A stretch of DNA of 64,000 nt from Acidobacteriota bacterium. GTDB taxonomy: Bacteria; Acidobacteriota; Vicinamibacteria; Vicinamibacterales; UBA2999. The notes beneath the pieces were generated by a model. That model was not told the DNA's origin and ran no database searches. It worked only from the letters and a program-made list of their open reading frames with translations. How positions within the stretch are numbered: the stretch's first letter is position 1; each line of letters begins with the position of its first letter. Made by a program: the position numbers and the translations under genes. The stretch lies in assembly GCA_030697165.1 (NCBI GenBank), contig JAUYQQ010000010.1:62001-126000 (forward strand), read 5' to 3'. This document shows, piece after piece, positions 43,709 to 62,771 of the stretch.

Positions 43709-44827
43709 CTACACCAGCCCGCGAAGGAGCTTCGTCGCCGGGGCCACGCGAATGCCGTCTGGTGTGACGTAGTCCTTGGTACCGACCGCCGATACCTGCC
43801 GCGCCTCGTATTTTGGGAACCGTGCTTTCAGGTACTTCAGGCTGCGATCGACCTCGGTATCGGCCCACTTGCATTCAACCATCAACTGTGGCGCCCCTCC
43901 TTCGACGACGACGAAGTCCACCTCGCGGCGGTCGGTATCGCGGAAGTAGCGCAGCTCGACGTCCCGACCCCTGGCATCCTGCTCGTGATGCGTCCATTTC
44001 AAAAGGTGCCCGGCCACCAGATTCTCGAATCGCAGCGACGGCTCTGGCACGACGCTCCAATCCCAGTGGTAGTGCTTTTGTTCCTTCTTGACGGCCCGAA
44101 TGCGGGGTGCGCCGAACGGCGGGAGCCGATGGATGGCATAGAGCCGCTCCAGAATCTGGAGCCAGTTCGCGACCGTCTTGTGCGTGAGCTGAAGATCCTC
44201 GCGCAGGGCATTGATCGACAACGGCGAGCCGACCAGCTCCGGCAGGCGAAGCATCAGCAACTCGAGATTGCCCAAGTCCTGGACGCGTTCGAGCGTCGCG
44301 ACTTCTTCGCGGACCAGCAGGGTGCGGTGTTCGCGTGACCAGCGACGCGCCTCCGTAGCCGAGCCACTGAAGTACGGTTCGGGAAAGCCTCCAAGATTGA
44401 GGAGATCCTGCAACTCCGCGGGCTTGGTCAGGCCCAACTCCGCGACCGACAAGGGATGCAGGCGAAGCAGGTGATAGCGGCCCAGGAGCGAATCGCCTCC
44501 GAAGCGATAGAAGTCCAGCCGCGCGCTGCCGGTAACGAGAATCTGCTGCCCGCGCGAACGGCCATCGAACAGACCCTTGAGAGAATTCCGCCAGGTACGG
44601 TACTTATGGAGCTCGTCGAGCACCCACAGCTTCGTGGCGGGCAGCTCGCGACGGAGGATGCGTTCGCGATGTTCGGCGACATCCCAGTTCAGATAGCCCG
44701 CCGTTCCTCCTGGAAGGCGCTTGGCGAGTGTGGTCTTCCCGACCTGTCGCGGACCCGCGACGAAGACCATCTTCCTGGCCAGATCGCGTCGGACCTGGGG
44801 CATGAGGTAACGGGTAAGCGCGGCCAC
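43709..44827 (-). CDS. DUF4143-type AAA ATPase with PD-(D/E)XK-like C-terminal domain
   Basis: 372 residues from GTG 44827. Walker A is FVAGPRQVGKTTLAKRL and Walker B is LWVLDELHKY. The middle contains a winged-helix-like part (INALREDLQLTHKTVANWLQ). The C-terminus has EVDFVVVEGG...LMVECKW, a D-(E)xK nuclease-like pattern. These stand-alone ATPases are often found with mobile DNA or toxin-type loci; real function is poorly known. A palindrome lies just upstream. Confidence 0.88.
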   Translation of the reverse strand: MAALTRYLMPQVRRDLARKMVFVAGPRQVGKTTLAKRLPGGTAGYLNWDVAEHRERILRRELPATKLWVLDELHKYRTWRNSLKGLFDGRSRGQQILVTGSARLDFYRFGGDSLLGRYHLLRLHPLSVAELGLTKPAELQDLLNLGGFPEPYFSGSATEARRWSREHRTLLVREEVATLERVQDLGNLELLMLRLPELVGSPLSINALREDLQLTHKTVANWLQILERLYAIHRLPPFGAPRIRAVKKEQKHYHWDWSVVPEPSLRFENLVAGHLLKWTHHEQDARGRDVELRYFRDTDRREVDFVVVEGGAPQLMVECKWADTEVDRSLKYLKARFPKYEARQVSAVGTKDYVTPDGIRVAPATKLLRGLV

Positions 44828-44916: not shown

Positions 44917-45708
44917 CTAGCCGGGCACCGCCAGCACGAACGCGCGGCCGGTCTTGAGCACCGCCGACGCAATGATCCCGGGGCGGCCCCTGGGCGGCTC
45001 CCGCAGCCCCATCACCACCAGGCCGGCGCCTTCCGCTACGGCACATCGCGAGATCTCCTCGGCCACGTCTCCTCGCCTCACGATCAACGACCTCGGCTTG
45101 ACGGGCGTAAGGCCGTGCGCGAGGCGCCGCAACCGGGCGGCGGCATCGTGGTCGGAAAGCTTGCTGCGCGCCACGGTCATCAGGATCAGGTCCTGGGCGG
45201 CGATCCGTGCGACGCGGCTGGCCAGCTGCAGCTGGTGGTCACACGGCCAGGCCAGGTCGACTGGCACCACCACCGGGCCGCACGTGAGGGCCGGCCGATC
45301 GCCCGCGCTGACGATGTTGATTTCGGTGGGCGGCACCAGCAGCACCGGCGTACGAGCCAGCCCCAACAAGGCCTCGCTGGTCGAGCCGAGCAGCAGCCGC
45401 GCCAGGCCGCCGTGTCCTCGCGAGCCAACGACGATGAGCGTGGCGTGGTGGTGCAAGGCCTCGCGCTGAATGGCTTCCGAGACGCGACCCGTGGCGACGA
45501 TCACCTTCGCGCTGTCGAGGTTCACCTCGTACGGCACCGCGCGGGCGCATTCAGCCAGCACGCGCTCCTTGAGGTCCTCCGAATCGTCGGTGCTGACGTG
45601 CAGGACGCGCAGGTCTGCGTCGAGCACCCTGGACAGGCCGTAGGCGTGAAACAAGACCCGCCCCGTGAGCGGTCCCAGATCGATGGCACAAAGGATCACG
45701 ACCGACAT
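44917..45708 (-). CDS. Universal stress protein, two tandem UspA domains
   Basis: 263 residues. Domain one (~1-140) ends with the ATP-type loop VVGSRGHGGLARLLLGSTSE and TPVLLVPP. Domain two (~145-263) is more diverged (GLVVMGLREPPRGRPGIIAS). Cytoplasmic stress/nucleotide-binding protein. The stop is near the ATPase promoter. A very good sigma54-like site lies only 4 bp upstream of the ATG, so the true start may be a downstream GTG (45699) or the mRNA may be leaderless. Confidence 0.9.
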   Translation of the reverse strand: MSVVILCAIDLGPLTGRVLFHAYGLSRVLDADLRVLHVSTDDSEDLKERVLAECARAVPYEVNLDSAKVIVATGRVSEAIQREALHHHATLIVVGSRGHGGLARLLLGSTSEALLGLARTPVLLVPPTEINIVSAGDRPALTCGPVVVPVDLAWPCDHQLQLASRVARIAAQDLILMTVARSKLSDHDAAARLRRLAHGLTPVKPRSLIVRRGDVAEEISRCAVAEGAGLVVMGLREPPRGRPGIIASAVLKTGRAFVLAVPG

Positions 45709-45711
45709 TAG

Positions 45712-45727
45712 GGCAAGGTTCGTGCCG
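45712..45727 (-). promoter_or_regulatory. Sigma54-like -24/-12 site before UspA gene (45708)
   Basis: Minus strand CGGCACGAACCTTGCC matches TGGCACGRNNNTTGCW at 11 of 13 specified positions, with GG and GC 10 bp apart. The expected transcription start (~45701) falls inside the annotated start codon area, which is odd. Confidence 0.5.
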
Positions 45728-45996: not shown

Positions 45997-46431
45997 ATGC
46001 CCGATTCCAGTTCTCGAGCGATCCTGAATCACCTGATCGAAACCTGCAAGGACAGCGAGTCTGGTTTCCGCCACGCTGCCGAGCTGGTGAGTGATCCCGC
46101 GTTCAAGACGCTCTTCACCGACCTCGCTCGTCGTCGCTCGCAGGTCGCGGCAGAGCTACAGCCGCACGCGCAGCGATTTGGCGGGTCCGAGGCGGCCGAT
46201 GGCACGACCGCCGCCTCACTGCATCGCAAGTGGATGGACGTGCGCGACAACTGGAGCGGACACGATGATCGCGCGATCCTGGCCGAAACCCGGCGCGGCA
46301 ACAGCATGACGGTAGCCGCGTTCAGGGACGCGCTGGCGGGCGTTCTGCCGGCGTCAGTTCGCGACATGGTGGAGCGGCAATACGCAGAGGTCTGCCGTAG
46401 CGAGGAAGCGCTGGCCGAAAACCTCACCTAG
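45997..46431 (+). CDS. DUF2383 (PA2169-type) four-helix-bundle protein
   Basis: 144 residues, all helical. The pattern (ILNHLIETCKDSESGFRHAAE, shown in part; RRRSQVAAELQPHAQRFGG; VRDMVERQYAEV) matches the ferritin-like PA2169/DUF2383 family, proteins of unknown function often found near stress genes. Start ATG 45997 after a strong AGGAGG. A sigma54-like site lies 55 bp upstream. Followed 15 bp later by a membrane protein gene. Confidence 0.82.
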   Translation: MPDSSSRAILNHLIETCKDSESGFRHAAELVSDPAFKTLFTDLARRRSQVAAELQPHAQRFGGSEAADGTTAASLHRKWMDVRDNWSGHDDRAILAETRRGNSMTVAAFRDALAGVLPASVRDMVERQYAEVCRSEEALAENLT

Positions 46432-46446
46432 CGTAATGTAGGCGTC

Positions 46447-46995
46447 GTGCCGCAGACCACGGAACGGGGATTGATCGAGGTGCACGTCGGCGAGCTGAAG
46501 CAGTTGTTCAACTCGCTCGACCCGACGCCGTTTCGCGAGCGCGACCTCGATCCCAGGGCGGAGGAGTTCATTGTCGGCTGGGCCACTGAACTGCACGGCG
46601 AGCCGCCTCTGTGCCTGGTGGTCCACATCGATCGGGTCGACCCGACACCGGCCGACGCGGCCATGCTGCGCGAGGCCATCGGCGAGTTCTTCAAGCAGCG
46701 GGCGCTCGTCACGCGCCGGCGGCTGCGCCAGGTGCTGCGGGTCGGGCGCACCAGCATGATGATTGGACTCGCGGCGCTGACCGCGTCGATCGTGCTCGGT
46801 GATTTGGTCGCTACCACCCTGGCCGACAACCGCTTCGGCGGGATCTTCCGCGAGAGCCTGCTAATCGGCGGCTGGGTCGCCATGTGGCGGCCGCTCGAGG
46901 TGTTCCTCTACGACTGGTGGCCTATTCGCGCCGAGGCGAGCCGCTTCGATCGCCTCAGCCAGATGTCGGTCCGCGTTATTCCCTCGCGTCAGTGA
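46447..46995 (+). CDS. Conserved membrane protein of unknown function
   Basis: 182 residues from GTG 46447. The first ~95 residues are soluble (GLIEVHVGELKQLFNSLDP, FREAIGEFFKQR-type helices). Two hydrophobic segments follow (SMMIGLAALTASIVLGDLVA; ESLLIGGWVAMWRPLEVFLY), and the tail returns to a basic, polar stretch. I do not recognise a named family. It likely shares the transcript of the DUF2383 gene. Its last 7 bp overlap the convergent UspA-cytochrome gene. Confidence 0.75.
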   Translation: MPQTTERGLIEVHVGELKQLFNSLDPTPFRERDLDPRAEEFIVGWATELHGEPPLCLVVHIDRVDPTPADAAMLREAIGEFFKQRALVTRRRLRQVLRVGRTSMMIGLAALTASIVLGDLVATTLADNRFGGIFRESLLIGGWVAMWRPLEVFLYDWWPIRAEASRFDRLSQMSVRVIPSRQ

Positions 46996-47900
46996 GCCGG
47001 CTTCACCTGCAGCGTGCGGATGAATTCGACCAGCGAATCGATCCGTTCCTTCACCGCCGCCGCATCGCCGCCATCGCGCGAACGGGCAAAGGCATCACCC
47101 CACACCGGCATGTCGGGCCCACCGTGCCCGCGCACCGGCGTCCTGCCGTCGATGGTGCGGAACACCAGCTCTGACGGGTACTCCGCGCCATTACGCTTGG
47201 CGATCTCGGTGAGGTCGGTCGGCGGGCGCCGCATGGAGCTAGCCAGTGGACCATCGCCGCGGCCCGTTGTTCCGTGGCAGGTGGCGCAGTAGGTTCGATA
47301 CACTTCACCGCCGGTCACTCGCTGGCGCATTTCCGTGGCCGGTTGCGAGGCGGCCTGCTGAGCCGTCGCCGGGATGGCAGCTCCGGGCAGGAGCAGTGCG
47401 GCAGCCAGGAAGGCGGCCGTGATGACGGTGGCCGACGCCGACCGGTGCTGAGCTTCCTTCGGCTCACGTACCGTCAGCACCGGACAGGGCGCCGTGCGCA
47501 CCACGCGCTCGGCGACATTGCCCATCAGCGCATGCATCAAGGGCCCGTGCCCGTGCGTGCCCATCACGATGAGGTCGACCTTGCGATTGGTCGCCGCCGT
47601 GACCAGGGCCCGTGCCGGGCTGCCGAACAGCACTTCCGTCGTCACGGTGATGCCGGTCAGTTTCGGCAACAGCTTCAGGAGCTCGCGTTCGGCCTCTTCG
47701 CCCAGTTGCTGGCTCCAGTTCGAGTATGCAACCGCGTACGCGTCCATCGACCCGGTGGTCAGCGACGGCACCTCGCAGACGTGAACGAGATGCAGTGACG
47801 CGCTGAAACGCGTCGCCAGGGTGTGGGCGTAGTCGAGGGCGCGAGAGGAGTTCGAACTGAAGTCCACCGGAACGAGAATGCTCTTGATGTCGGGGCTCAT
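46989..47900 (-). CDS. UspA domain fused through a membrane helix to a cytochrome c domain
   Basis: 303 residues in one uninterrupted frame. Residues 1-~150 are a full UspA domain (IKSILVPVDFSSNSSRALDY; VMGTHGHGPLMHALMGNVAE; CPVLTVREP). Then comes one hydrophobic segment (ATVITAAFLAAALLLPGAAI) ending like a signal peptide (PATAQQ). Residues ~205-303 are a monohaem cytochrome c (YCATCHGTTGRGDGP, axial Met in GGPDMPVWGDAF). The topology fits cytoplasmic Usp and periplasmic haem. ATG 47900 chosen for the Usp start. A sigma54-like site lies 40 bp upstream. Confidence 0.85.
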   Translation of the reverse strand: MSPDIKSILVPVDFSSNSSRALDYAHTLATRFSASLHLVHVCEVPSLTTGSMDAYAVAYSNWSQQLGEEAERELLKLLPKLTGITVTTEVLFGSPARALVTAATNRKVDLIVMGTHGHGPLMHALMGNVAERVVRTAPCPVLTVREPKEAQHRSASATVITAAFLAAALLLPGAAIPATAQQAASQPATEMRQRVTGGEVYRTYCATCHGTTGRGDGPLASSMRRPPTDLTEIAKRNGAEYPSELVFRTIDGRTPVRGHGGPDMPVWGDAFARSRDGGDAAAVKERIDSLVEFIRTLQVKPAH

Positions 47901-47939: not shown

Positions 47940-47955
47940 GGCAACCTCCATGCCA
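47940..47955 (-). promoter_or_regulatory. Sigma54-like -24/-12 site before the UspA-cytochrome c gene
   Basis: Minus strand TGGCATGGAGGTTGCC, 11 of 13 consensus positions. Predicted start ~47930 gives a ~29 nt leader containing AGGGA before ATG 47900. The GAGTAATATTCCGC motif lies about 85 bp upstream. Confidence 0.68.
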
Positions 47956-48015
47956 TCAGAAAAGCCCCGCCGGCCGGTCTGGCTGGCGTTCGAACCGCGA
48001 CATTTCCAGCCACCT

Positions 48016-48029
48016 GAGTAATATTCCGC
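48016..48029. promoter_or_regulatory. Candidate activator site GAGTAATATTCCGC
   Basis: Related to the GGAATATTCC motif found between the other divergent stress-gene pairs. It lies between the UspA-cytochrome gene and the acyl-CoA synthetase gene. Confidence 0.45.
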
Positions 48030-48070: not shown

Positions 48071-50188
48071 TTGCCCGAGTTGCCCCCTCCATCCCGCCAG
48101 GCCCTTACCCCGTTCTTCGAGCCGTCGTGTGTCGCCGTGGTCGGCGCGAGCCGCGAGCGCAACAAGATCGGGTCGGAAGTGCTTCATAACCTGTTGGCCA
48201 CCGGTTTCACAGGCGCGGTGGTGCCGGTGCATCCCACTGCCGCCACTCTCCAGGGCCTGACCGCCTATCCGCGGGTCGCCGACATCCCTTCGGCGGTGGA
48301 CCTGGCGGTGATCGTGGTACCCGCGGCGCAGGTGCCGGCGGCGGTGGACGATTGCCTCGCGAAACAGGTGCCCGCGATCTGCATCATCAGCGCCGGCTTC
48401 GGCGAGTGCGGCGAGGAGGGCCGCGCGGTCGAGCGCGAAATGGTCCGGAAGATTCGCAGTGCCGGCAGCCGGCTGATCGGCCCCAACTGCATGGGCCTGC
48501 TGAACACCGATGCGCGCTTCGCATTGAATGCGACGTTCTCGCCGGTGTATCCGCCGGCGGGCGGCGTGGCGATGTCGACACAAAGCGGCGCGCTCGGCCT
48601 CGCGATTCTCGACTACACCCGCCAGCTGAACATCGGCATCTCGACCTTCGTCTCGGTGGGCAACAAGGCCGACGTGTCGGGCAACGACCTGTTGCTCTAC
48701 TGGGAAACGGATCCGAGCACGGCGGTCATCCTGCTGTACCTGGAGAGCTTCGGCAACCCGTCGAAGTTCAGCCACATCGCCCGCCGCATCAGCCGCACCA
48801 AGCCGATCGTGGCGCTCAAGTCGGGACGCTCACCGGTTGGCGCGCGCGCCGCCGCCTCGCATACCGGCGCGCTGGCCTCGAGCGACGACTTCGTCGACGC
48901 GCTCTTTCACCAGGCCGGCGTGATCCGGACCGACACGGTCACCGAGTTGTTCGATGTGGCGACCCTGCTGTCGCGACAACCGCTGCCGCAGGGGCGCCGG
49001 GTCGCGATTCTGACCAATGCCGGCGGTCCAGGCATCCTGGCCGCCGACGCCTGCCTGGCGCATGGCCTGCTCGCCGCCGAGCTGACGGCCGAGACCAAGG
49101 TCGGGCTCAAGACATTGCTGCCGGCCGCGGCCGCCGTCCACAACCCGGTCGACATGCTCGCCTCGGCCTCGCCGGCCCAGTACCGGCAGGCCTTGCAGTT
49201 GCTGTTGGCCGACCCCAACGTCGATAGCGCCATCGTCATCTTCATTCCGCCCCTGATCACCAGCGCCGATGACGTCGCCACGGCCATTGCCGGCGCAGCG
49301 GCGGAGTCGGGCAAGCCCGTGTCGGGCGTGTTCATGCGGAGCCATGCGGCGCCCGAATCGCTGGCGGCGGTACCGTGTTACGCCTTCCCGGAACCGGCGG
49401 CCATTGCGCTGTCGCGGGTCGCGACCTACGGCGAGTGGCGGCGGCAGCCACCGAGTGACGCACCGGCGTTTCCCGACATCCAGGAAGGGTTGGCGCGCGC
49501 GGTCGTCGACACGGCCGTGCGGCGCGGTGGTGGCTGGCTGTCGGCGGTCGAGGCGAACGCGCTGGTTTCAGCGGCCGGGATCACGACGCCGCGATCCCTT
49601 CTCGCCACCTCGATCGACGAGGCCGTCGACGCGGCGGTAAAGGTCGGGCTGCCGGTGGCACTGAAGGCCGTCGGCGCGTCCTTGCTTCACAAGACCGAAC
49701 ACCGGGCCCTGCGGCTCAATCTCGAGTCCAGGCTGGCGGTCCGCCAGGCCGCCGCCGAACTGACCGGCGCGCTCGGCGACCGCATGGAGGGGCTGCTGGT
49801 GCAGCCCATGGTGAACGGCGGCGCCGAGATGATGATCGGCGCGATCAACGACCCCGTCTTCGGCCACGTCGTGGTCTGCGGCAGCGGCGGCGTGCTCGTG
49901 GATCTGCTCGCCGACTCGGCGTGCCGGCTGCACCCGGTGACCGATCGCGATGCGCACGAGATGGTCGAGTCGCTGAAGGGTGTGCGCCTGCTGCGCGGGT
50001 TCCGCGGCGCCGAACCCGCGGACGAACCGGCGTTCCGGGACGCCATCCTGCGCATCTCGGCGCTGGTCGGCCTGTGCCCCGAGATCCAGGAACTGGATCT
50101 CAACCCGGTGAAGGTGTTGCCCGGGGGCGTGTCGGCGATCGACGTGCGCGTGCGGGTCGACGCCGTTCAGCCACGCCCACCGGGCTAA
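48071..50188 (+). CDS. ADP-forming acetyl/acyl-CoA synthetase (NDP-forming, fused subunits)
   Basis: 705 residues from TTG 48071. Order: CoA-binding domain (SCVAVVGASRERNKIGSEVL), succinyl-CoA-ligase-like domains with the phosphohistidine region ARAAASHTGALASSDD, then a C-terminal ATP-grasp domain (LPVALKAVGASLLHKTEHRA; EIQELDLNPVKVLPGG). Makes ATP (or GTP) from acyl-CoA, useful under energy limitation. No acetyltransferase domain is attached. It is divergent from the UspA-cytochrome gene. Confidence 0.92.
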   Translation: MPELPPPSRQALTPFFEPSCVAVVGASRERNKIGSEVLHNLLATGFTGAVVPVHPTAATLQGLTAYPRVADIPSAVDLAVIVVPAAQVPAAVDDCLAKQVPAICIISAGFGECGEEGRAVEREMVRKIRSAGSRLIGPNCMGLLNTDARFALNATFSPVYPPAGGVAMSTQSGALGLAILDYTRQLNIGISTFVSVGNKADVSGNDLLLYWETDPSTAVILLYLESFGNPSKFSHIARRISRTKPIVALKSGRSPVGARAAASHTGALASSDDFVDALFHQAGVIRTDTVTELFDVATLLSRQPLPQGRRVAILTNAGGPGILAADACLAHGLLAAELTAETKVGLKTLLPAAAAVHNPVDMLASASPAQYRQALQLLLADPNVDSAIVIFIPPLITSADDVATAIAGAAAESGKPVSGVFMRSHAAPESLAAVPCYAFPEPAAIALSRVATYGEWRRQPPSDAPAFPDIQEGLARAVVDTAVRRGGGWLSAVEANALVSAAGITTPRSLLATSIDEAVDAAVKVGLPVALKAVGASLLHKTEHRALRLNLESRLAVRQAAAELTGALGDRMEGLLVQPMVNGGAEMMIGAINDPVFGHVVVCGSGGVLVDLLADSACRLHPVTDRDAHEMVESLKGVRLLRGFRGAEPADEPAFRDAILRISALVGLCPEIQELDLNPVKVLPGGVSAIDVRVRVDAVQPRPPG

Positions 50189-50200
50189 CGCGGTGATGCG

Positions 50201-50692
50201 CTAGGCCTTCGCGGCCGCGACCAGCGCGTCGGGCGCGATGAAGTCGCGTTCGTTCGCGCGCACCGCCAGCACCGGACACGGCGCCGTGCGCACGATCCGC
50301 TCGGCGGCGCTGCCGAGCAACAACTGCTTCACGGCGCCGCGGCCGTGCGTGCCGACCACGATCAGGTCGATGGCGTTGGCGCGTGCGTATTCGGTGACGC
50401 CGCCGGGCACGTTGAAGGCGGTCTGCACGACCTCAACCAACTTGAGGGTCTTGCGGTCGTCCTCGGTGATCGACGCCTCGAGGTCGCGCTTCGCGGCCTT
50501 CTCGAGGTCCCGCTGCAGGTCCGGAATGGCAAAACCCACCTCGGGGCTGTAGCGCATCATCACGTCTTCCACCACATGCAGCACGTGGAGGGTGGCGTTG
50601 TAGGAGCGGGCGAGATCACGGCCGTACGCCATGGCGACGGCTGATGGCTCGCCGAAGTCGGTGGCCACGAGAATGTTCTTCAGCACAACCAT
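50201..50692 (-). CDS. Universal stress protein, single UspA domain
   Basis: 163 residues. LKNILVATDFGEPSAVAMAY at the start, VVGTHGRGAVKQLLLGSAAE (nucleotide loop) and TAPCPVLAVR at the end. I chose ATG 50692 because GAGG lies 6 bp before it; ATG 50704 is the alternative. It is divergent from the receiver genes, and a sigma54-like site lies 50 bp upstream. Confidence 0.92.
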   Translation of the reverse strand: MVVLKNILVATDFGEPSAVAMAYGRDLARSYNATLHVLHVVEDVMMRYSPEVGFAIPDLQRDLEKAAKRDLEASITEDDRKTLKLVEVVQTAFNVPGGVTEYARANAIDLIVVGTHGRGAVKQLLLGSAAERIVRTAPCPVLAVRANERDFIAPDALVAAAKA

Positions 50693-50741
50693 TGGAAGCC
50701 TCATCAAATCGCGCGGCGGATGCGCCGGCGACCACCAGGTG

Positions 50742-50757
50742 AGCACAATACATGCCA
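50742..50757 (-). promoter_or_regulatory. Sigma54-like -24/-12 site before UspA gene (50692)
   Basis: Minus strand TGGCATGTATTGTGCT, 10 of 13 consensus positions. Predicted start ~50731 leaves a ~40 nt leader. No GGAATATTCC-type motif was seen nearby. Confidence 0.55.
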
Positions 50758-50892
50758 TCCTCCGGCTCCAGCCATGGCCCGATTATTGAAACGAGATTCG
50801 GCATGGACGCGATCGCCACCACGTTCGCTCGGGTTATCGGGTTTGATTCACCGATACCGGTCCGGACGGCGCGAGAGATTCTGAGGACGGCC

Positions 50893-51276
50893 GTGAAAAA
50901 ACACCCACTCCACGTGCTGGTCGTCGACGATGAACCGCTGATTCGCTGGTCGGTCACCGAGACCCTGGCCGACCTCGGCCTTGATGTGGAGCAGGCCGAC
51001 TGCGCCGCCTCGGCCTTACAGGCCATTACCACCACGGCCCTGCCCTTTGATGTGATCGTGCTGGACCTGCGGCTGCCGGACATGCGCGACCTGTCGCTGC
51101 TGGCCACCATCCGCCAATTGCTGCCCGAAACGCCGGTGGTCCTGATGACCGCCTTCGGCACGCCCGAAGTCATGTTCACCGCCCGCCAGTTGGGGGTACG
51201 TGCCGTCCTGAACAAGCCATTTGAACTGAGCGAGTTGAGCCGCGTCGTGGTGGAGGCGTTGACCCCGGCGCGTTGA
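50893..51276 (+). CDS. Single-domain response regulator (receiver)
   Basis: 127 residues: a complete receiver with VLVVDDEPLIRWSVTETL, phosphoacceptor Asp in IVLDLRLPDM, Thr in LMTAFGT and Lys in LNKPFELSE. No output domain. GTG 50893 has GAGG at the right distance; an in-frame ATG at 50803 would add ~30 non-conserved residues. The stop overlaps the next start (TGATG). It is very like the next two receivers. Confidence 0.85.
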   Translation: MKKHPLHVLVVDDEPLIRWSVTETLADLGLDVEQADCAASALQAITTTALPFDVIVLDLRLPDMRDLSLLATIRQLLPETPVVLMTAFGTPEVMFTARQLGVRAVLNKPFELSELSRVVVEALTPAR

Positions 51277-51736
51277 TGGATGGCGCCAACATGGGCCATA
51301 CTGGCGGCTTCGTGCAGCCCATTTCAGCAGGCGAAGAATCCCGTTTGTCCGACCGTCCGCGGCCGCGCACGGCCCTGGTGGTCGATGACGAGGCGTTGAT
51401 CCGCTGGTCGGTCAGCGAGACCCTCAGCGACCTGGGCTTCGTCGTCGCCCAGGCGGCCGACGGGGCCAGTGCGCTTAGTGCCATCGGCGACGCCGGGACG
51501 GCGTTCGATGTCGTGGTGCTAGACCTCAGGCTGCCGGATGTCAACGACCTGTCGTTGCTCGGCCGTGTGCGCGAGCTGCTGCCGCTGTCAACGGTGGTCT
51601 TGATGACTGCGTTCGGCACGGCCGAGATCGTCGCCGCGGCCCTCGAGCTCGGCGTGATCGGCGTCCTCAACAAGCCGTTCGAGCTCACCGAGCTCGCCCA
51701 GCTTCTCGGCCTGACCGGCACACCCCGGCCATCCTG

Positions 51737-51737
<1 letters not shown>
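51276..51737 (+). CDS. Single-domain response regulator (receiver), paralogue of the preceding gene
   Basis: 153 residues: ~30-residue leader, then a receiver with LVVDDEALIRWSVSETLSDL, Asp in VVLDLRLPDV, LMTAFGTAE and LNKPFELTE. No output domain. It overlaps both neighbours by one base (TGATG on each side), so the three regulators are stoichiometrically coupled. Possibly a phosphate sink or shuttle for the shared kinase. Confidence 0.88.
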
Positions 51738-53078
<1,341 letters not shown>

Positions 53079-53107
<29 letters not shown>

Positions 53108-54164
53108 CGATCGTGCCGCCGTCAGGCGGACAGGTCACGTGGATGCGGCCCTCGTGCAGTTCGACCAGCCGCTTGGCCGTGGCCATGCCAAGGCCGGTGC
53201 CCCGCGCCTTGGTCGTCTTGAACGGACGAAACAGCGCCGCGCGGATCTCGGGGTGAATGCCGGGGCCATGGTCGGCGACCTCCACCCGTAACCAGCCGTC
53301 CGCCGAAGTCATCGAGACCGTGATCGCCCCCTTGCCATGCATGGCCTGCGCCGAGTTGATCAACAGGTTCTGGAACACGATGGTCATCAGGGACGGGTCG
53401 AGCGGCATGGGCGGGGCCTCGCCGGCAATCGTGACCTCGAGAGCGTGAAGCGCCGGGTCGGCCTTCATCAGGTCGGCGACTCTCGACAGCAGGGCACGCA
53501 GGTCACTGGGGACCAGCTTGGGTTGCGGCGGCCGCGCGAACACCAGCAGGTCCTGGATCAGGCTGTTCAGCGCGTCGATGCGGGCGATGATCTCCCTGAT
53601 GATCGCGCCGTCGCCGGACTCGCCCTTCATGCGCGAACCAATCACCTGGATGGCGCCGCGCACGGCGGCCAGGGGGTTCTTCACTTCGTGCGCAATCACT
53701 GCGGCCATCTCGCCCAGGCGGGCCATGGCGGTCGCCTCGCGCAGGCGGTCTTCGAGTTCGACCCGGCTCGACAGGTCGTGCAGGATGCCGGTGAAATGCG
53801 GTTCGCCGTCAATCTCCATCCGGCCGACTGACAGGTGCAGGGGAAAGGTGTGGCCGTCCTTGCGACGGCCGGTGACCGCCCGGCCAATGCCGATGATCTT
53901 CCGCTCGCCGGTCCTGAGGTGTCTCGCCAGGTAGCCGTCATGTTGCGAGTGATCCGGCTCGGGCATCAGCAGTTTGACGTTCCGGCCCATCGCCTCGGCC
54001 TCGCTGTAGCCGAACATCTGCTGGGCCGCAGCGTTGATCACCTCGATCGTGCCCTTCGCGTCGATCACGATGATGCCGTCGACGGCGGCGTCGATCACCG
54101 CGCGCCAGCGCACCTCGGCAATGCGGCCGGCGTCCATCAGCTTCTGCGGTTCGGGTTCACTCAT
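53079..54164 (-). CDS. Soluble PAS histidine kinase with FixL-like haem-pocket residues
   Basis: 361 residues, no membrane helix. PAS domain ~20-135, then HisKA with the phosphoryl His159 in VIAHEVKNPLAAVRG and a HATPase with NLLINSAQAM, ADHGPGI and GTGLGMATAKRL. In the PAS, SQHDGYLARH...KIIGIGR lines up with Bradyrhizobium FixL so that His75, Arg81, Ile90 and Arg95 match its His200, Arg206, Ile215 and Arg220. This suggests haem-based oxygen sensing (inference). It is convergent with the NtrC gene, its likely partner. Confidence 0.88.
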
Positions 54165-54454: not shown

Positions 54455-54895
54455 TTACGCCTCCGATTCGATCCACTCCTCCTGTCCGCGGGCCTTGCGC
54501 ACCTCGCGGTTGGACTTGTGTTCGGGCTTGCGGGCGAGCAACTCGAGCAGGTCCGAGACCGTCACGATGCCCGCCACCTTGCCGTTGGCCGAGGTCACGA
54601 CCAGCGATCCGATCGAGCGGCCCTTCATCAGGCTCGCCGCCCGCCGCACCGGCGTGCGGGTCGTCACCGTCAGCACCGGGCTCGTCATCAGGTCGGCCAC
54701 CGTCCACTTGCCAAGGACCTTGGGCAGCTTGGCGCCGCCGAGATCGCGATCCGACACGATGCCCTGCAGCTCGGAGCCGTCGGTCACCACCAGGTGATGG
54801 ATCTTCTTTTGCCGCATGCGAGTCTTGGCTTCCGAGGCGGCCACCTTCGGCTTGACGGTTTCGACGGCCTTGCTCATCACTTCGTAGACTCTCAT
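54455..54895 (-). CDS. Tandem CBS-domain protein
   Basis: 146 residues, two CBS motifs (RVYEVMSKAVETVKPK... and VADLMTSPVLTVTTRTPVRR; IVSDRDLGG and IVTVSDLLELL close each half). Such pairs bind adenosine nucleotides and report energy state. The tail is basic-acidic (KPEHKSNREVRKARGQEEW). AGGAGAG precedes ATG 54895. A sigma54-like site lies 37 bp upstream. Stress or energy sensing fits the surrounding Usp genes. Confidence 0.92.
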   Translation of the reverse strand: MRVYEVMSKAVETVKPKVAASEAKTRMRQKKIHHLVVTDGSELQGIVSDRDLGGAKLPKVLGKWTVADLMTSPVLTVTTRTPVRRAASLMKGRSIGSLVVTSANGKVAGIVTVSDLLELLARKPEHKSNREVRKARGQEEWIESEA

Positions 54896-55929: not shown

Positions 55930-57783
55930 CTAAAAGTCGTGCATGGTCGCTGGCGGGAACGCGGCCCGCAACGCGTTCAGCACGGCCAGCACGTCAATCG
56001 CCTCCTGCAGCAAGGCGCCGCCGACGGGCGTCAGGTAGCCGGCGGCGGCGAAGCCCATGCCGATCATGCTGAGCGCCATGCCGCCGACCGCGCTCTGCAG
56101 TGCAATGGCGCGCATCCGCCGCGCGATGTGCATGAATTCATCGACCTTCTTCAGGGTGTTCTCGAGGGCAATCACGCCGGCCGCTTCGGCAGTCACGTCG
56201 CTGTGCTCGCCGATGGCCATGCCCACGGTCGCGGCCATCATCGCCGGCGCGTCGTTGATGCCGTCGCCGACATACAGCGTCGGCGCCAGCGCGGTTTCGG
56301 CGCGGACGAGCGCCAGTTTCTGTTCAGGACTCTGTTCGGCGTGCACCTCGGTCACCCCGACCTTGTCGGCGAGGTAACGCACTTCCGACTCGCGATCGCC
56401 CGACACGATCATCGTCTTGCGAAAGCCATGCTTCACGCCAAGGTGCTGCACGAACGAACGGCTGTCGGGTCGAGGCGCATCGCGGAACCGCAAGGTCGCG
56501 GCGTAGCGATGGTCGAGGGCCACCACGCACTCGAGGCCGCCGGCCGCCGCCGGCAGCTGACCGGCTGCGGACGGGTCGCGCGCGAGCAGTTGCGACCGGC
56601 CGGTCACCATGACTTCGCGACCGAGCACGCTGCCGCGCAGGCCCGCACCGGGCGGTTCGGTTACTTCGGACGCTTCGGCCAGCCCGACGGCGTCGGCGCT
56701 GGCGGCGGCGAGCACCGCACGCGCCAGCGGGTGCTTCGAGTAGCGCTCGAGGCTGGCGACCAGCTTCAGGACCTCCTCCCTCGAGAAGCCCTCGGCCACC
56801 AGGATCTCCGTGAGCGTGGGCTCGCCGTAGGTCAGCGTCCCGGTCTTGTCGAAGATCGCCGTGCGGCAGGTCGCGATCGACTCCAGCACCGCCGGGCTCT
56901 TGACGATGATCGCGCGGCGGGCGCAGAGCGAGATCGAGCCGACAATGGCGACGGGAATGGCAATCAGCAGGGGGCACGGTGTGGCGATGACCAGCACGGC
57001 CAGGAAGCGCGTGGCGTCGCCGGTCGCCGCCCACGCGGCCAACGCGACCGCCAGCGCCACCGGCGTGTAGATCGCGCCCAGCTGATCGCCCAGCCGGCGC
57101 AGTCGCGGCCGGGTCGCTTCCGAGTCGCGCATCACGTCCATGATTCGGGCGTAGCGCGAGTCGGCGGCCCGGCGCGTGGTCCGGATGACGAGCACGGCGT
57201 TGCCGTTGATCGCACCTGAGATCACCTGCGAGCCACGCGTCTTGGTGATCTCGAACGGCTCGCCGGTGAGATAGGACTCGTCCATCACGCCGTGGCCCTC
57301 GAGCACCTCGCCATCGACCGGGCAGATCTCGTGGGGGTGGATCACCAGGGTGTCGCCCACCGCGATGTCGCCGAGCGCCACGTCGGTCGTGGCTCCGTCC
57401 GTGCGGCGATGGGCCACGAGGGGCACGCGGCGGGCCAGTGCGTCAAGCACGGAGGAGGCGCTGCGCAGGGCGTAGCTCTCGAGGGCAGCGCCGCCGGCCA
57501 GCATTAGCACGATGATCGACCCGGCGAGATACTCGCCGAGCCACAGCGAAGTCAGGATGGAAATGCCGCCAAGCAGGTCGGCCCCGAACTCGCGTCGCAG
57601 GAACTTGCGGAACAGGTCGTACAGCAGCGGCGCGCCACCGAGGATGATGGCCGCCAGCAGGGGAAGGTCCGCGGCGGCGGCGCTGGCCAGTTGGCCGTAC
57701 TTCAGCAGTAGATGTAGGCTGATGGCCACCACACATGCGGCGGCTATGGCCGAGGTAGATCGACGGTTGGTGATGCTCAGCAT
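55930..57783 (-). CDS. Heavy-metal P1B-type ATPase with TPC motif
   Basis: 617 residues, no N-terminal metal-binding domain. Membrane motif [14 protein letters not shown] (TPC, not the CPC of Cu/Zn pumps), phosphorylation site [14 protein letters not shown], and hinge [16 protein letters not shown] pumps are grouped with less-studied P1B classes linked to nickel or iron. The annotated ATG is 57783, but a sigma54-like site ends 10 bp upstream, so the mRNA may be leaderless or the start lies further in (GTG 57732). Confidence 0.9.
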
Positions 57784-57792
57784 CAGGCTAGT

Positions 57793-57808
57793 GGCAACGC
57801 GTGTGCCA
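57793..57808 (-). promoter_or_regulatory. Sigma54-like -24/-12 site before the P-type ATPase gene
   Basis: Minus strand TGGCACACGCGTTGCC, 10 of 13 consensus positions. The predicted transcription start (~57782) coincides with the annotated ATG. Confidence 0.5.
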
Positions 57809-58097: not shown

Positions 58098-58436
58098 ATG
58101 TTTCGGTTCTGCTCACTGACCCTGATGTTTCTCGGCGGCGCGTTGGTCGTGTCGGCGGGGCCGGCTTACGCGCAGGCAGAAGCGGGAGCCAAGGTCTACG
58201 CGGCTCAGAAGTGCTCGATGTGCCACTCCATCGCGGGCGTTGGCAACAAGAAGTTTCCGCTTGACGGCGTGGGCACCAAGCTGACGGCCGACCAGATCCG
58301 CGAGTGGATGGTCGACCCGGTCGAAGCGGCCAAGAAGGCAAAGTCGACCGCCAAGCCACCGATGCGGGCGTATCCCAAGCTGGAGAAGGCCGACTTGGAT
58401 GCGGTCGTCGCCTACATGAAGTCGCTCACCAAGTAA
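58098..58436 (+). CDS. Periplasmic monohaem cytochrome c
   Basis: 112 residues: signal peptide ending AGPAYAQA, haem site QKCSMCHSIAGVG, axial Met in KPPMRAYPKL. Small class I cytochrome, likely a soluble electron shuttle. GGAGG precedes ATG 58098. First gene of an operon that continues past the window edge; the next gene starts 6 bp after its stop. Confidence 0.93.
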   Translation: MFRFCSLTLMFLGGALVVSAGPAYAQAEAGAKVYAAQKCSMCHSIAGVGNKKFPLDGVGTKLTADQIREWMVDPVEAAKKAKSTAKPPMRAYPKLEKADLDAVVAYMKSLTK

Positions 58437-58442
58437 GCGCTC

Positions 58443-59492
58443 ATGTCGACCCGGGTCGTGTTTGCGGTTGGTGTTCTGGCGGTCTGCCTGATGGCAGCCG
58501 CGGCACCAGCCGCAGCCCAGGCGCCAGCCGAAGGGCAAGCCCCGGCGCCGCCTGCTAACGAAGATTGCCTGGCCTGTCACGAGGACAGTTCGGCCACCCG
58601 CGCCAACGGCTCCAGTATCGCCGTCGCGGTGGACGCCGTCGCCAAGTCCGTGCATGGCCCGCTCACCTGCGTCAGTTGCCACGCCGATCTGGCCAAGACC
58701 ACGGAGTGGCCGCACCCCGAGAAGCTTCAGCCCGCGACCTGTTCCACCTGCCACGACGGGGAAGGTCGTAACTACGAGGATAGCGTGCACGGCCTGGCCG
58801 TTTCGAGGAGCGGCCTGGCGGTCGCGCCACGCTGCGGCACCTGTCATGGCACGCACGACATCCAGGGTCCTTCTAACCCTGAAAGCAAGGTCCATCGCGC
58901 CAAGATCGCCGGCACCTGCACGACATGCCACGAGGGCATCGCGCCGCTGTACGCGACGAGCGTTCACGCCCAACCGCTCGGGCCCAATCAGTCGGCGGCG
59001 GCGGTCTGTTCGGACTGTCACACCGCGCATCGGATCCAGCGCAGCGACGCCGATGCCTGGCGCCTCTCGGTGATCGCCGAGTGCGGCACGTGCCATCTGG
59101 AGCGGGTCTCGTCGTACCGCGACAACTTCCACGGCCAGAAGACCACGCTCGGGTCGACGCGCACGGCGACCTGCAGCAGTTGCCACGACTATCACGGCGT
59201 CCTGCCGGCCAGCAATCCGGCCTCGACCATCGCGCCGCAGAATCTCGTCGCCACCTGCCGCAGCTGCCATCCCCAGGCGAGCGAGTCGTTCGTGAAGTAC
59301 GACCCGCATGCCGACAAGAATGATTCGACCCGCAGCGCGCCGGTCTACTGGACCTATCGGTCCATGCAAGGCCTGTTGCTCGGTGTGTTTGCGTTCTTCG
59401 GAGTGCACACGCTGCTCTGGTTCCCGCGGTCGTACCGGGCGCGGCAGAAGCGGCGCGCGGCCGCGGCGGCCAGAGAGGACTCGGCGTCATGA
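58443..59492 (+). CDS. Nine-haem c-type cytochrome with C-terminal membrane anchor
   Basis: 349 residues: signal peptide ending PAAAQAP, then nine CxxCH sites (CLACH, CVSCH, CSTCH, CGTCH, CTTCH, CSDCH, CGTCH, CSSCH, CRSCH) and extra His residues for bis-His ligation. A C-terminal membrane helix (MQGLLLGVFAFFGVHTLLWF) and basic tail anchor it in the inner membrane, haems outside. Its stop overlaps the cytochrome b start (ATGA), suggesting a complex. Confidence 0.93.
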   Translation: MSTRVVFAVGVLAVCLMAAAAPAAAQAPAEGQAPAPPANEDCLACHEDSSATRANGSSIAVAVDAVAKSVHGPLTCVSCHADLAKTTEWPHPEKLQPATCSTCHDGEGRNYEDSVHGLAVSRSGLAVAPRCGTCHGTHDIQGPSNPESKVHRAKIAGTCTTCHEGIAPLYATSVHAQPLGPNQSAAAVCSDCHTAHRIQRSDADAWRLSVIAECGTCHLERVSSYRDNFHGQKTTLGSTRTATCSSCHDYHGVLPASNPASTIAPQNLVATCRSCHPQASESFVKYDPHADKNDSTRSAPVYWTYRSMQGLLLGVFAFFGVHTLLWFPRSYRARQKRRAAAAAREDSAS

Positions 59493-60313
59493 CGCCCGGC
59501 GAACGCCATGTTGTCCGCTTCCAGCCTTACCAGCGGGCGATGCACCTGGTCCTGTTCACCAGCTTTCTCGGCCTGGCGACTACCGGCCTGCCGCTGATGT
59601 TCAGCGACCGCCCGTGGGCGGGCGTGCTGTCGCGCGGCCTCGGCGGCATCGAAGTCGCCGGCATCCTGCACAGAATCTTCGCGGTGACGCTGCTGGTGCT
59701 GTTCGCGGGTCATCTCGCCGAGTTAGTTTGGCGGCTCACCCGGCGCAAGGAACCAGGTCTGTTGTGGGGGCCGACCTCGATGGTCCCGCAGCCGCGTGAT
59801 GCCGCGCAGTTGTGGCAGCACGTCAAGTGGTTCGTTGGCAAAGCGGAGCGACCGCACTTCGACCGCTTCACGTACTGGGAGAAGTTCGACTACTGGGCGG
59901 TGTTCTGGGGGATGGTGATCATCGGTGGCTCGGGCCTGCTGCTGTGGTTCCCGGAGTTCTTTAGCGGGTTCTTCCCGGGCTGGATCTTCAACGTGGCCGT
60001 GATTATTCACGGTGAGGAAGCACTGCTGGCGACGGGCTTTATTTTCACGATCCATTTCTTCAACAGTCACTTCCGGCCCGAGAAGTTCCCGATGGACATG
60101 GTGATGTTCACCGGGCAGGTCACCGAGGAAGAGCTGCTGAGCGAACGGCCCGCGGAGTACGAGCGGATGGCCAAGGATGGCACGCTCGAGGCGCTGTCGG
60201 CGCCGCCGGCGCCGGGCTGGTTGTCGCAGGCCGGCCGGGTCGTCGGCACCGCGGCGGTGATCCTGGGCCTGGTGTTGCTGGTGTTAATCCTTGTGGGGAC
60301 CTTCAATGAGTGA
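59489..60313 (+). CDS. Inner-membrane cytochrome b (b561/FdnI-like)
   Basis: 274 residues with about five hydrophobic segments. Likely haem-ligand histidines are in YQRAMHLVLF, AGILHRIFAV, LFAGHLAEL and FTIHFFNSHF. Such subunits pass electrons between the quinone pool and periplasmic cytochromes. Coupled to the nonahaem gene by ATGA overlap and overlapping the next gene by 8 bp. A quinol-oxidising b/c module is the natural reading. Confidence 0.88.
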   Translation: MTPGERHVVRFQPYQRAMHLVLFTSFLGLATTGLPLMFSDRPWAGVLSRGLGGIEVAGILHRIFAVTLLVLFAGHLAELVWRLTRRKEPGLLWGPTSMVPQPRDAAQLWQHVKWFVGKAERPHFDRFTYWEKFDYWAVFWGMVIIGGSGLLLWFPEFFSGFFPGWIFNVAVIIHGEEALLATGFIFTIHFFNSHFRPEKFPMDMVMFTGQVTEEELLSERPAEYERMAKDGTLEALSAPPAPGWLSQAGRVVGTAAVILGLVLLVLILVGTFNE

Positions 60314-61706
60314 GACGTTGCCGCCAGCCGAACCCGCCTCGCCGGTGGGCGTGCTTCGCAATCCGATCACGATCGCCGGCGCGGTGCTGACGACCATCTC
60401 GGTGCTGCTGTTCCTCGCCTTCTTCCTGATCGAGCTGAGCGGCGTGATCGCCCACGAGAACCCGTATCTCGGCATCGTGTTCTTCATCACGCTGCCGGCC
60501 CTGGCCGTGCTCGGCCTGCTGATGATTCCGCTCGGCGTCTGGCGGGAACGGCGGCGGCGGCTGGCGGGGCTCGCGCCAAGTTTGCGGGAGTGGCCACGGA
60601 TCGACCTCAACAATTCCCACACGCGCGCGATTCTGTTTGGGATCGCCGTGCTGACACCGGTCAACCTGCTGATTCTTTCGGCCGCGGCCTACAAAGGCGT
60701 CGAGGCGATGGACTCGGTGGAGTTCTGCGGCGCGACCTGCCACGAGGTGATGGAGCCGGAGTATGTCGCCTACCAGAATGGCCCGCACGCGCGCGTCAAG
60801 TGCGTGTCGTGTCACATCGGGTCGGGCGCCGGCTGGTTTGCCAAATCGAAGCTGTCGGGCACCCGCCAGGTGTTCGCGGTGATGTTGAACACGCACAGCC
60901 GGCCGATTCCGTCACCGGTGCACGACCTGCGCCCGGCCCGCGAAACCTGCGCCGAGTGCCACTGGCCGGCCCAGTTCCACGGCGACAAGATCGAGACCAG
61001 GCACGAGTTCGCCGACGACGAGGCGAACACCGAGTCGATCACGACGCTGCGGCTGCGCATCGGCGGGATTGACGGCACCGGCCGGCCGGGCGGCATCCAC
61101 TGGCACGTCGCCGAAGAGAACGTCGTCGAGTACATTGCCCTCGACCGCGAGCGGCAGAACATTGGCTACGTCAAGCTGACGACTGCGGACGGCGAGACGC
61201 GCGAGTACTACAGCGAGGGCGTCACCGAGGCGCAACTCGCCGTCGGCGAGCGCCGGCGCATGGACTGCGTTGACTGCCACAATCGTCCGAGTCACGCCTT
61301 TGCCCGGTCGGCCGATCGGGCGGTCAACGAGGCCATGGCGTCCGGTGCCATTGCCAAGGATCTGCCGTTTGCGAAGCGCGAGGCGGTAGCGGCGCTGACC
61401 GTGCCCTACCCTGACCGCGCCACGGCCGATCGGGAGATCGCCAACCGGGTGAGTGCGTTTTATCGCGACGGCTATCCGGCGCTGTGGACCTCGCGCCAGG
61501 CCGATATCGAGCGCGCCGTGAAGGGGGTACAGACCTTGCACAGCCGCAACGTGTTCCCGGCGATGAAGGTGACGTTTGGGACCCATCCGGACAACAAGGG
61601 CCACATGGAGTTTCCGGGCTGTTTCCGGTGTCATAACGACGAGCACAAGACTCGAGATGGCAAGGTGATTTCACAGGATTGCTCGACCTGCCATGAAGTG
61701 TCCTGA
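60306..61706 (+). CDS. NapC/NirT-like membrane multihaem cytochrome c
   Basis: 466 residues. Two or three hydrophobic segments in the first ~135 residues, then haem sites: a CX3CH site (EFCGATCHEVMEPEY), followed by CVSCH, CAECH, CVDCH, CFRCH and CSTCH. HEVMEPEY resembles the first-haem region of NapC/NrfH quinol dehydrogenases. Beta-rich segments lie between haems 3 and 4. Probably moves electrons from quinol or the b/c module to the periplasmic decahaem cytochrome. Confidence 0.9.
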   Translation: MSETLPPAEPASPVGVLRNPITIAGAVLTTISVLLFLAFFLIELSGVIAHENPYLGIVFFITLPALAVLGLLMIPLGVWRERRRRLAGLAPSLREWPRIDLNNSHTRAILFGIAVLTPVNLLILSAAAYKGVEAMDSVEFCGATCHEVMEPEYVAYQNGPHARVKCVSCHIGSGAGWFAKSKLSGTRQVFAVMLNTHSRPIPSPVHDLRPARETCAECHWPAQFHGDKIETRHEFADDEANTESITTLRLRIGGIDGTGRPGGIHWHVAEENVVEYIALDRERQNIGYVKLTTADGETREYYSEGVTEAQLAVGERRRMDCVDCHNRPSHAFARSADRAVNEAMASGAIAKDLPFAKREAVAALTVPYPDRATADREIANRVSAFYRDGYPALWTSRQADIERAVKGVQTLHSRNVFPAMKVTFGTHPDNKGHMEFPGCFRCHNDEHKTRDGKVISQDCSTCHEVS

Positions 61707-61730
61707 GTAAGACAAGTCAGGTACGAACCG

Positions 61731-61745
61731 GTGGGATATTCCCCC
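61731..61745. promoter_or_regulatory. Candidate activator site GTGGGATATTCCCCC
   Basis: Same motif type as at 57894-57903, located in the 84 bp gap before the decahaem cytochrome gene. A weak -24/-12-like sequence follows at 61751-61766 (7 of 13 positions). Confidence 0.42.
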
Positions 61746-61790
61746 ATCGGCGGGAAAGTTTCAGCACCGGTTGAGTCCGGAGGACTTTGT

Positions 61791-62771
61791 ATGTCGATCA
61801 CCAGATACGTCTTGGTTTTAGCTGCCGGCCTGTGGGGCGCGGTGTTCGTGGCAAGCGGCGTCGCGTCGCCCCCAACGGCGGTTCCGGCCGAGCCGAGTGC
61901 CGTGGAGGCGCCCGCGGCCGAGCCGCAGCAGTCGCAGGCGCCGGCCACGCCGCCAGCCGGGTATGTCGGCGCCGACACCTGTGCCACCTGCCACGAGGGC
62001 TACGACCAGAACGTAGCGGGGACCAAGCACGGGTTCAAGGCCAACCCGGGCACGCCGGCGGCGCAACAAGGCTGCGAGTCGTGCCACGGCCCGGGCGAGG
62101 CGCATGTCAGCGACCCGGAGAAGATCAAGCCCATCCTGTTGGCCAAGGTCTCGGCGAGCCAGTCCAATCAACAGTGCCAGACCTGCCACAGCCGGGGCGA
62201 GCATGCCCTCTGGGAAGGCAGCCAGCACGAAAACCGCAACGTCAAGTGCATCGACTGCCACAGCATCCACTCGGCCAAGGGCCCGGTGCTGATGCGGGCC
62301 AAGACCGAGCAGCTCACTTGCGCCAAGTGCCACCAGAACGTCACCAACAAGCAGCAGCGCTTCAACCACATGCCGGTTCGCGAGGGCAAGATGACCTGCG
62401 CCTCGTGCCACAACGTGCACGGCTCGGTGAATGTGAAACTGCTCAAGGTGGGCACCACGATCGACCAGAGCTGCACCAGTTGCCACACCGAGAAGCGCGG
62501 ACCGTTCCTGTGGGAGCACGCGCCGGTCGCCGACAGCTGCACCACCTGCCACGACTCGCACGGCAGCAACAACGACCGGATGCTCGTCGCCAAGCAGCCG
62601 TTCCTCTGCCAGCGGTGTCACGTGACCTCGCGGCATCCTCCAACCGTTTACGAGGGCTTTACCCTGAACAACTCGCAGAATGCCAACAAGATTTACGGCA
62701 AGTCCTGCGCGAACTGCCACCAGCAGGTTCACGGGTCGAACCATCCGAACGGCAAGTTCTTCCTGCGGTGA
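61791..62771 (+). CDS. DmsE/MtrA-family decahaem c-type cytochrome
   Basis: 326 residues: signal peptide (ITRYVLVLAAGLWGAVFVAS), Pro/Ala linker, then ten CxxCH sites (CATCH, CESCH, CQTCH, CIDCH, CAKCH, CASCH, CTSCH, CTTCH, CQRCH, CANCH). Length, haem number and the following barrel gene mark it as the periplasmic wire of an MtrAB-type conduit. GGAGGA precedes ATG 61791. No Lys or other unusual haem ligand is evident. Confidence 0.94.
   Translation: MSITRYVLVLAAGLWGAVFVASGVASPPTAVPAEPSAVEAPAAEPQQSQAPATPPAGYVGADTCATCHEGYDQNVAGTKHGFKANPGTPAAQQGCESCHGPGEAHVSDPEKIKPILLAKVSASQSNQQCQTCHSRGEHALWEGSQHENRNVKCIDCHSIHSAKGPVLMRAKTEQLTCAKCHQNVTNKQQRFNHMPVREGKMTCASCHNVHGSVNVKLLKVGTTIDQSCTSCHTEKRGPFLWEHAPVADSCTTCHDSHGSNNDRMLVAKQPFLCQRCHVTSRHPPTVYEGFTLNNSQNANKIYGKSCANCHQQVHGSNHPNGKFFLR

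Follow-up and report, generated by a model that had tools for sequence, protein, structure and literature searches.

A single unbroken gene of an Acidobacteriota bacterium joins a universal stress protein (Usp) domain, a signal-peptide-like segment and a cytochrome c, and this Usp-cytochrome c architecture is conserved within part of one genus. It is undescribed in what could be searched: a search of titles and the openings of abstracts, with full texts for named passages only, found no published description of such a fusion. This agrees with the original prediction, made from the sequence of the region, to which the architecture was likewise not known. The fusion looks like a new way to co-produce a stress protein and an electron carrier. 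On balance it is probable that the two are made together at low oxygen in one precursor, which would be cut to give a Usp tethered to the membrane and a cytochrome free in the periplasm. The features identified in the window, the whole 64,000-nucleotide stretch of contig JAUYQQ010000010.1 that was analysed (contig positions 62,001 to 126,000), are listed in Table 1.

Table 1. Features of the fused gene and its surroundings, in window positions.
Feature	Position	Strand	Basis or remark
Usp gene, 263 aa, perhaps of the same regulon	44917..45708	-	one Pfam Usp match
Looser sigma-54-like site with doublet, before the Usp gene 44917-45708	45713-45727		19 bases ahead of annotated start
DUF2383 protein	45997..46431	+	
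Fused gene (Usp, signal-peptide-like segment, cytochrome c), 303 aa	46989..47900	-	frame, Pfam, orthologues
Cytochrome c domain, residues 190-303	46992..47333	-	PF00034, solved cytochromes, AF2 block
Met264, candidate distal haem ligand	47109..47111	-	Met in 24/24 rows of alignment A4
Haem attachment motif CATCH, residues 205-209	47274..47288	-	C205, C208 and H209 in 24/24 rows of A4
Signal-peptide-like segment, residues 148-180	47361..47459	-	charged start, hydrophobic core, Pro-Gly break, ATA before Gln
Usp domain, residues 6-145	47466..47885	-	Pfam PF00582, Foldseek to solved Usp structures
Sigma-54 promoter TGGCATGGAGGTTGC of the fusion	47941..47955	-	first base 55 bases ahead of ATG
Doublet of GGGGAATATTCCCC-like sites, presumed activator sites	47995..48029	-	upstream of sigma-54 element
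ADP-forming acyl-CoA ligase type protein	48071..50188	+	no NCBIfam cut-off reached; in the retrieved fusion neighbourhood of 4/5 genomes
Single-domain Usp	50201..50758	-	near fusion in 5/5 fusion genomes
Stand-alone receiver protein	50752..51276	+	
Stand-alone receiver protein	51273..51737	+	
NtrC-type sigma-54 response regulator, presumed activator	51737..53107	+	counterpart 79-90% identical near fusion in four other fusion genomes
Histidine kinase with FixL-type haem-PAS domain, presumed oxygen sensor	53079..54164	-	PDB FixL chains
CBS-domain protein	54455..54895	-	likewise near fusion in G001 and G007
Heavy-metal P-type ATPase	55930..57783	-	TIGR01525 above cut-off; sigma-54 site at 57808 (-)
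Sigma-54 promoter TGGCACACGCGTTGC before the P-type ATPase gene, with site doublet	57794..57808	-	25 bases ahead of annotated start

The fused gene and its conservation

The frame of 303 codons runs without a break from the ATG at 47898-47900 to the stop at 46989-46991. The mechanically defined open reading frame extends upstream to 48092; orthologues align only from the ATG at 47900, and the sigma-54 promoter falls within the extension. The join of Usp, hydrophobic segment and cytochrome c in one frame, as originally predicted, recurs full-length and without a stop in 5 of the 9 genomes of the genus that were searched (G000, G001, G002, G007 and G008). The fusion is absent from the other four (G003, G004, G005 and G006), even though completeness reaches 97% in G003 and 100% in G004. 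Identity between the orthologues and the protein of the window is 62-76%.

Both domains appear to be under purifying selection. In the 6 of 15 pairs computed, one of which includes a short paralogue from G002, dN/dS is 0.07-0.29 over the cytochrome part and, for full copies, 0.10-0.21 over the Usp part (residues 1-147), with dS of about 0.6-1.4 across the two. The junction is fast-changing, with dN/dS of 0.34-0.65 and 31-43% identity. The paralogue is a second fused copy 9 kb from the first (L032:18476-19225). An in-frame deletion has removed residues 90-147 of its Usp, the half that carries the phosphate-binding or nucleotide loop; the promoter, the hydrophobic segment and the cytochrome are retained.

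The N-terminal part belongs to the Usp family, with 125.6 bits to PF00582 against a cut-off of 24 (E 2.9e-36). The match covers profile positions 3-141 of 141, and the domain is therefore complete, as had been claimed for it. The 50 PDB matches shown by Foldseek (best E 1.2e-7) either are Usp structures or carry no family name, and the latter are taken to be Usp-type as well. A GTHG-9x-GN motif is present at residues 114-128. The G-2x-G-9x-G(S/T) motif of ATP-binding Usp proteins is thus kept in spacing and departs in its last residue, Asn replacing Ser/Thr in all five full fusions, whereas the other 30 Usp stretches with the motif that were counted in the loci have GS. Nucleotide binding by the fused Usp may be altered by this change.

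The C-terminal part is assigned to the cytochrome c family by PF00034 (Cytochrom_C) over residues 197-297, narrowly, with 22.6 bits against a cut-off of 21.3; Cytochrome_CBB3, with 25.5 bits, is slightly below its cut-off of 27. Solved cytochromes are matched in sequence with a best E of 1.5e-11. The AF2 model has pLDDT of 68-93 over residues 201-300, and the assignment rests on the sequence matches, since the 50 Foldseek matches shown include no cytochrome structure. There is a single CXXCH in each fused chain, which confirms the description as monohaem. This motif and a downstream Met, as expected of a class I cytochrome c, are present in all 24 rows of A4, a hand-picked alignment (the 31 rows of A3 minus six misplaced Usp rows and L047).

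Fusions of Usp domains to kinases, permeases, exchangers and Cl- channels are named in the available parts of two reviews (PMC6560075, PMC12159084). In those fusions, as here, the Usp domain is joined to a membrane-linked partner; they differ from the present one, whose partner is an exported cytochrome c preceded by a signal peptide, and the word 'cytochrome' has no occurrences in the main texts of the two reviews.

Distribution and the two-gene form in relatives

The same domain order was found in relatives within the genus, in the five genomes above, but nowhere full-length in the genomes searched outside it. A search of the family, with nearly all candidates scored, identified the fusion in 5 of 43 genomes, all of this genus. 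The same five of 162 genomes were recovered in the order, among matches listed at E <= 1e-40 and with up to 14 candidates scored per genome. In the phylum, among matches listed at E <= 1e-50 and with up to five candidates scored per genome, the fusion is present in 4 of 396 genomes, again all of this genus, G001 not being among the matches. None of 431 matching plasmid records has a fusion at 80% coverage. No fusion was recovered at E <= 1e-32 in the phyla of G413, G417 and G415 (398, 247 and 247 genomes), a weak result, as these searches lacked a positive control and covered no more than 5 to 9 candidates in each genome. A strongly divergent fusion could escape any of these searches.

A scan of genome contigs with two peptide patterns retained 80 loci, of which four are the orthologues, in three records labelled Acidobacteria and one labelled Cyanobacteria. 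No cytochrome frame in the other 76 also matches Usp, and Usp genes adjoin a cytochrome in just one of them, L065. Locus L040 is record JAIEMQ010000006.1, labelled Cyanobacteria; it has the same fusion and neighbours as the acidobacterial genus and is probably from a mislabelled assembly.

The nearest separate cytochromes are from the same family, have 59-62% identity, and carry ordinary signal peptides that end AEA/Q or ADA/Q (the slash marks the cleavage site). Two genomes of another family in the same order, G1350 and G1352, have a Usp gene, its stop, one codon, and the ATG of a cytochrome c with a signal peptide ending in AQ, all in frame, so that the cytochrome ATG is three bases past the Usp stop. 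Loss of the stop from such an arrangement would give the fused architecture. The Usp genes of G1350 and G1352 have their best match in a different Usp of the window's genome (42%), and the pair therefore illustrates the arrangement rather than the direct ancestor. In L065, from the Acidobacteria isolate nzgw76, two cytochrome and two Usp genes lie in a row as separate genes (cytochrome, cytochrome, Usp, Usp), adjoining a P-type ATPase gene and an NtrC gene that is 73% identical to that of the window. In some relatives both parts are therefore separate proteins of neighbouring genes. The original prediction was to fall if relatives had separate genes and the junction proved broken; the former is the case, but the junction here is without a break. 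The fusion would have originated when a Usp gene merged with the gene for an exported cytochrome c that lay downstream of it.

The junction segment and the fate of the fused chain

A single hydrophobic segment ending like a signal peptide had been predicted between the domains, and a signal peptidase I motif is indeed present in 6 of 6 copies. The cut is predicted between residues 180 and 181. The residues at -3, -1 and +1 are ATA/Q, AAA/Q, AYA/Q, GLA/Q, VAA/Q and AEA/Q, so that every copy has a small residue at -3, Ala at -1 and Gln at +1, the internal signal peptide expected of an FbcH-like precursor. Of the 33 ungapped junction columns just 3 are invariant across the six sequences, -1 and +1 among them, which makes their joint invariance unlikely to be due to chance (0.006 for two named columns). 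By eye, the core is about 11-15 residues long with charges ahead of it, and Pro is found within the core or after its end in 5 of 6 copies. Since the signal peptides of the closest separate cytochromes end alike, the segment is best read as an inherited signal peptide.

FbcH of Bradyrhizobium japonicum is encoded by one gene and made as a single precursor, in which an internal segment resembling a signal peptide precedes a c-type cytochrome; it is cut into two proteins, cytochromes b and c1, which belong to one respiratory complex. The present gene is similar in encoding one precursor with such a segment ahead of a c-type cytochrome, and would be similar in its cleavage. It differs from FbcH in that the first part is a soluble cytoplasmic Usp.

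The following sequence of events is proposed. At low oxygen, the neighbouring FixL-type haem-PAS kinase and NtrC-type regulator would activate the sigma-54 promoter. The Usp would be translated first and the former signal peptide would then enter the Sec channel, with the Usp side staying in the cytoplasm. The topology of the original prediction, Usp in the cytoplasm and haem outside, is plausible. Signal peptidase I would cut after Ala180, and the cytochrome part, freed into the periplasm, would gain its haem and carry electrons. The Usp would remain on the signal-peptide stump at the inner face of the membrane, or be released once the stump is digested; the fusion perhaps keeps it close to the respiratory chain. 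With one fused precursor, the stress protein and the electron carrier would therefore be equal in amount and made at the same time.

Cleavage is judged slightly more likely than not. Weighing against it is the unusual position of the signal peptide, which follows a folded cytoplasmic domain of about 147 residues. A second point against it is the hydrophobicity of the segments, which is strong enough for them to remain as membrane anchors: their best 19-residue means are 1.81-2.28, and just 9 of 24 hand-picked separate cytochromes (range 1.03-2.66) reach 1.81. In G007 the cleavage scan places the site two residues past the aligned one (AQA/T). Gln at +1 is found in just 7 of the 24 hand-picked separate cytochromes. 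The motif could also be a leftover of the signal peptide, retained ancestry explaining part of its conservation. The AF2 model (mean pLDDT 72) has an 11-residue helix at 158-168 within the segment, at low confidence, and pLDDT is under 50 over residues 116-158.

It may tentatively be held instead that the chain stays uncut, as a single-pass membrane protein with its N-terminus inside, in which the Usp domain senses or signals the redox state of a periplasmic cytochrome c to which it is covalently linked. The single conserved unbroken frame with selection on both domains is consistent with this, as are the charges ahead of a hydrophobic run of anchor strength and the Asn that sets the full fusions apart from the other Usp stretches, a change specific to the fused form. 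Against it are the retention of the signal peptidase motif in every copy, the Pro at the end of the core, and the paralogue of G002, in which promoter, segment and cytochrome persist without Usp 90-147. The stretch from the cut site to CXXCH also varies, from 16 residues (18 from the aligned site) to 32. The original prediction saw in nucleotide and haem on one chain a possible direct link between redox state and stress signalling. One chain is indeed encoded, but the link is weakened by the signal peptidase motif and again by the paralogue, which lacks the Usp half carrying the nucleotide loop. The connection between stress and redox state more likely resides in shared control by oxygen limitation than in such a link. 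An uncut redox switch induced by oxygen limitation, with the state of the haem passed through one helix to a Usp with a changed nucleotide pocket, is rather doubtful; if true, the cell would read the redox state of its respiratory chain straight into a Usp.

The Usp could also be in decay and functionless, carried along while only the exported cytochrome is selected. This is compatible with cleavage, and both the in-frame loss of half the Usp in the paralogue and the lack of the Ser of the phosphate motif in the fused Usps suggest it; the low dN/dS across residues 1-147 of the full copies argues against it and makes it unlikely. A cytochrome made from an internal start codon, as two cistrons in one frame, is very unlikely. 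A GTG encodes the Val of PCPVLT ahead of the segment in three of the five full copies (G000, G001 and G007), and the cytochromes of G1350 and G1352 start at an ATG of their own. However, the codon is GTA in G008 and GTC in G002, and inspection by eye shows neither a further in-frame start common to the copies ahead of the core nor a stretch resembling a Shine-Dalgarno sequence. The internal start is rejected because the candidate GTG is not common to all copies. That two genes were joined by chance or by an assembly error through a lost stop or frameshift, for which the original prediction wished the junction to be checked, is extremely unlikely even with a two-gene form separated by one stop in relatives, and is excluded for the assembly by the four further unbroken orthologues, the five assemblies having neither stop nor shift at the dS given above.

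Usp proteins are common, and little is known of what they do. A fixed-ratio tie of a Usp to an exported electron carrier, under one promoter that probably responds to low oxygen, points to respiration at the membrane as the site of the Usp. If the cut is real, the gene is a natural example of a signal peptide acting behind a folded cytoplasmic domain, with the two-gene form of its relatives for comparison.

Promoters, regulators and neighbouring genes

A sigma-54 element, TGGCA(C/T)G-N4-TTGC, lies 44-55 bases upstream of the ATG in 6 of 6 copies. In the whole genome there are 9 matches to TGGCAYRNNNNTTGC and 10 for the reversed control, which means no enrichment for the pattern by itself; the nine include the promoters of the fusion and of the P-type ATPase, 10 kb apart. 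Doublets of GGGGAATATTCCCC-like sites, with the spacing set by the test at 18-22 bases, score 18-22 in the six fusion promoters and 19-21 in four others: those of the P-type ATPase in G000 and G002, of the Usp gene 44917-45708, and of one G002 gene. The background mean is 13.7 and at most 2.2% of random windows attain the promoter scores, figures that are descriptive because the consensus was picked after the promoters had been viewed. The scoring covered 11 promoters and seven other genome sites, leaving out at least two further doublets seen by eye, at the L035 CBS gene and at position 2111 of L034. One of the seven other sites scores 18, equal to the weakest fusion promoters, and the Usp promoter of L065 has a sigma-54 element and no doublet (score 14, at background level). 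When the spacing was left free, 9 of the 11 promoters still gave 18-22, the exceptions being the fusion promoter of the window and that of L065.

The similar promoters and doublets at the P-type ATPase gene and the Usp gene 44917-45708 suggest one regulon. Their sigma-54 sites are so close to the annotated starts that either these starts are annotated too early or the sites are due to chance.

All five full fusion copies lie near an NtrC-type regulator and a FixL-type haem-PAS kinase. The PAS domain of the window's kinase aligns with solved FixL over the length of the haem-PAS domain, including the HD-Y and IIGIGR stretches (best E 1.9e-41, to 8js5), and HDGY and (I/V)IGIGR are kept in the kinase of 5 of 5 fusion genomes of the genus. 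The aligned His and Arg are taken to be the proximal His and the distal Arg of the haem, and by these features the domain is of FixL type. The whole protein has 233.3 bits against the NCBIfam FixL equivalog cut-off of 850; it is therefore a kinase with a FixL-like sensor domain and not a FixL. It also differs from FixL in that the neighbouring output is an NtrC-type regulator. The kinase gene faces the regulator gene, with the two stand-alone receivers beside them, an arrangement that would pair a FixL-like sensor with an NtrC-type output. Oxygen limitation is the likely inducer of the fusion, judging by homology and gene position for both the kinase-regulator pairing and the oxygen signal. 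In another genome, G023, the kinase at L135:14686-16140 has, by eye, two successive FixL-like PAS stretches.

The NmpR regulon of Myxococcus xanthus is, in the passages available, an NtrC-type/sigma-54 system that includes a single-domain Usp, a CBS protein and a P-type ATPase, with one gene induced at low oxygen, the binding site GCGCA-N5-TGCGC and a sensor with a protoglobin domain (PMC11841059). The gene set of the window recalls it, with genes for a single-domain Usp, a CBS-domain protein and a P-type ATPase in the vicinity of an NtrC-type regulator and sigma-54 promoters. It differs in its GGGGAATATTCCCC-like sites and FixL-type sensor, and those passages describe no fused Usp-cytochrome for the NmpR regulon. 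When the 220 bases ahead of each of the six copies were loosely scanned for GCGCA-N5-TGCGC, a single partial match emerged, in G007, so that sites of the NmpR type were not found there.

The edge of the island has an AAA_14/DUF4143 ATPase gene (43709-44827) with no match in the retrieved islands of the other fusion genomes. At 58098-62771, genes for multihaem cytochromes, a small cytochrome c and a membrane protein of b561 type are clustered, and related genes recur next to Usp or separate cytochrome genes in several relatives (L133, L134, L136, L137 and L139).
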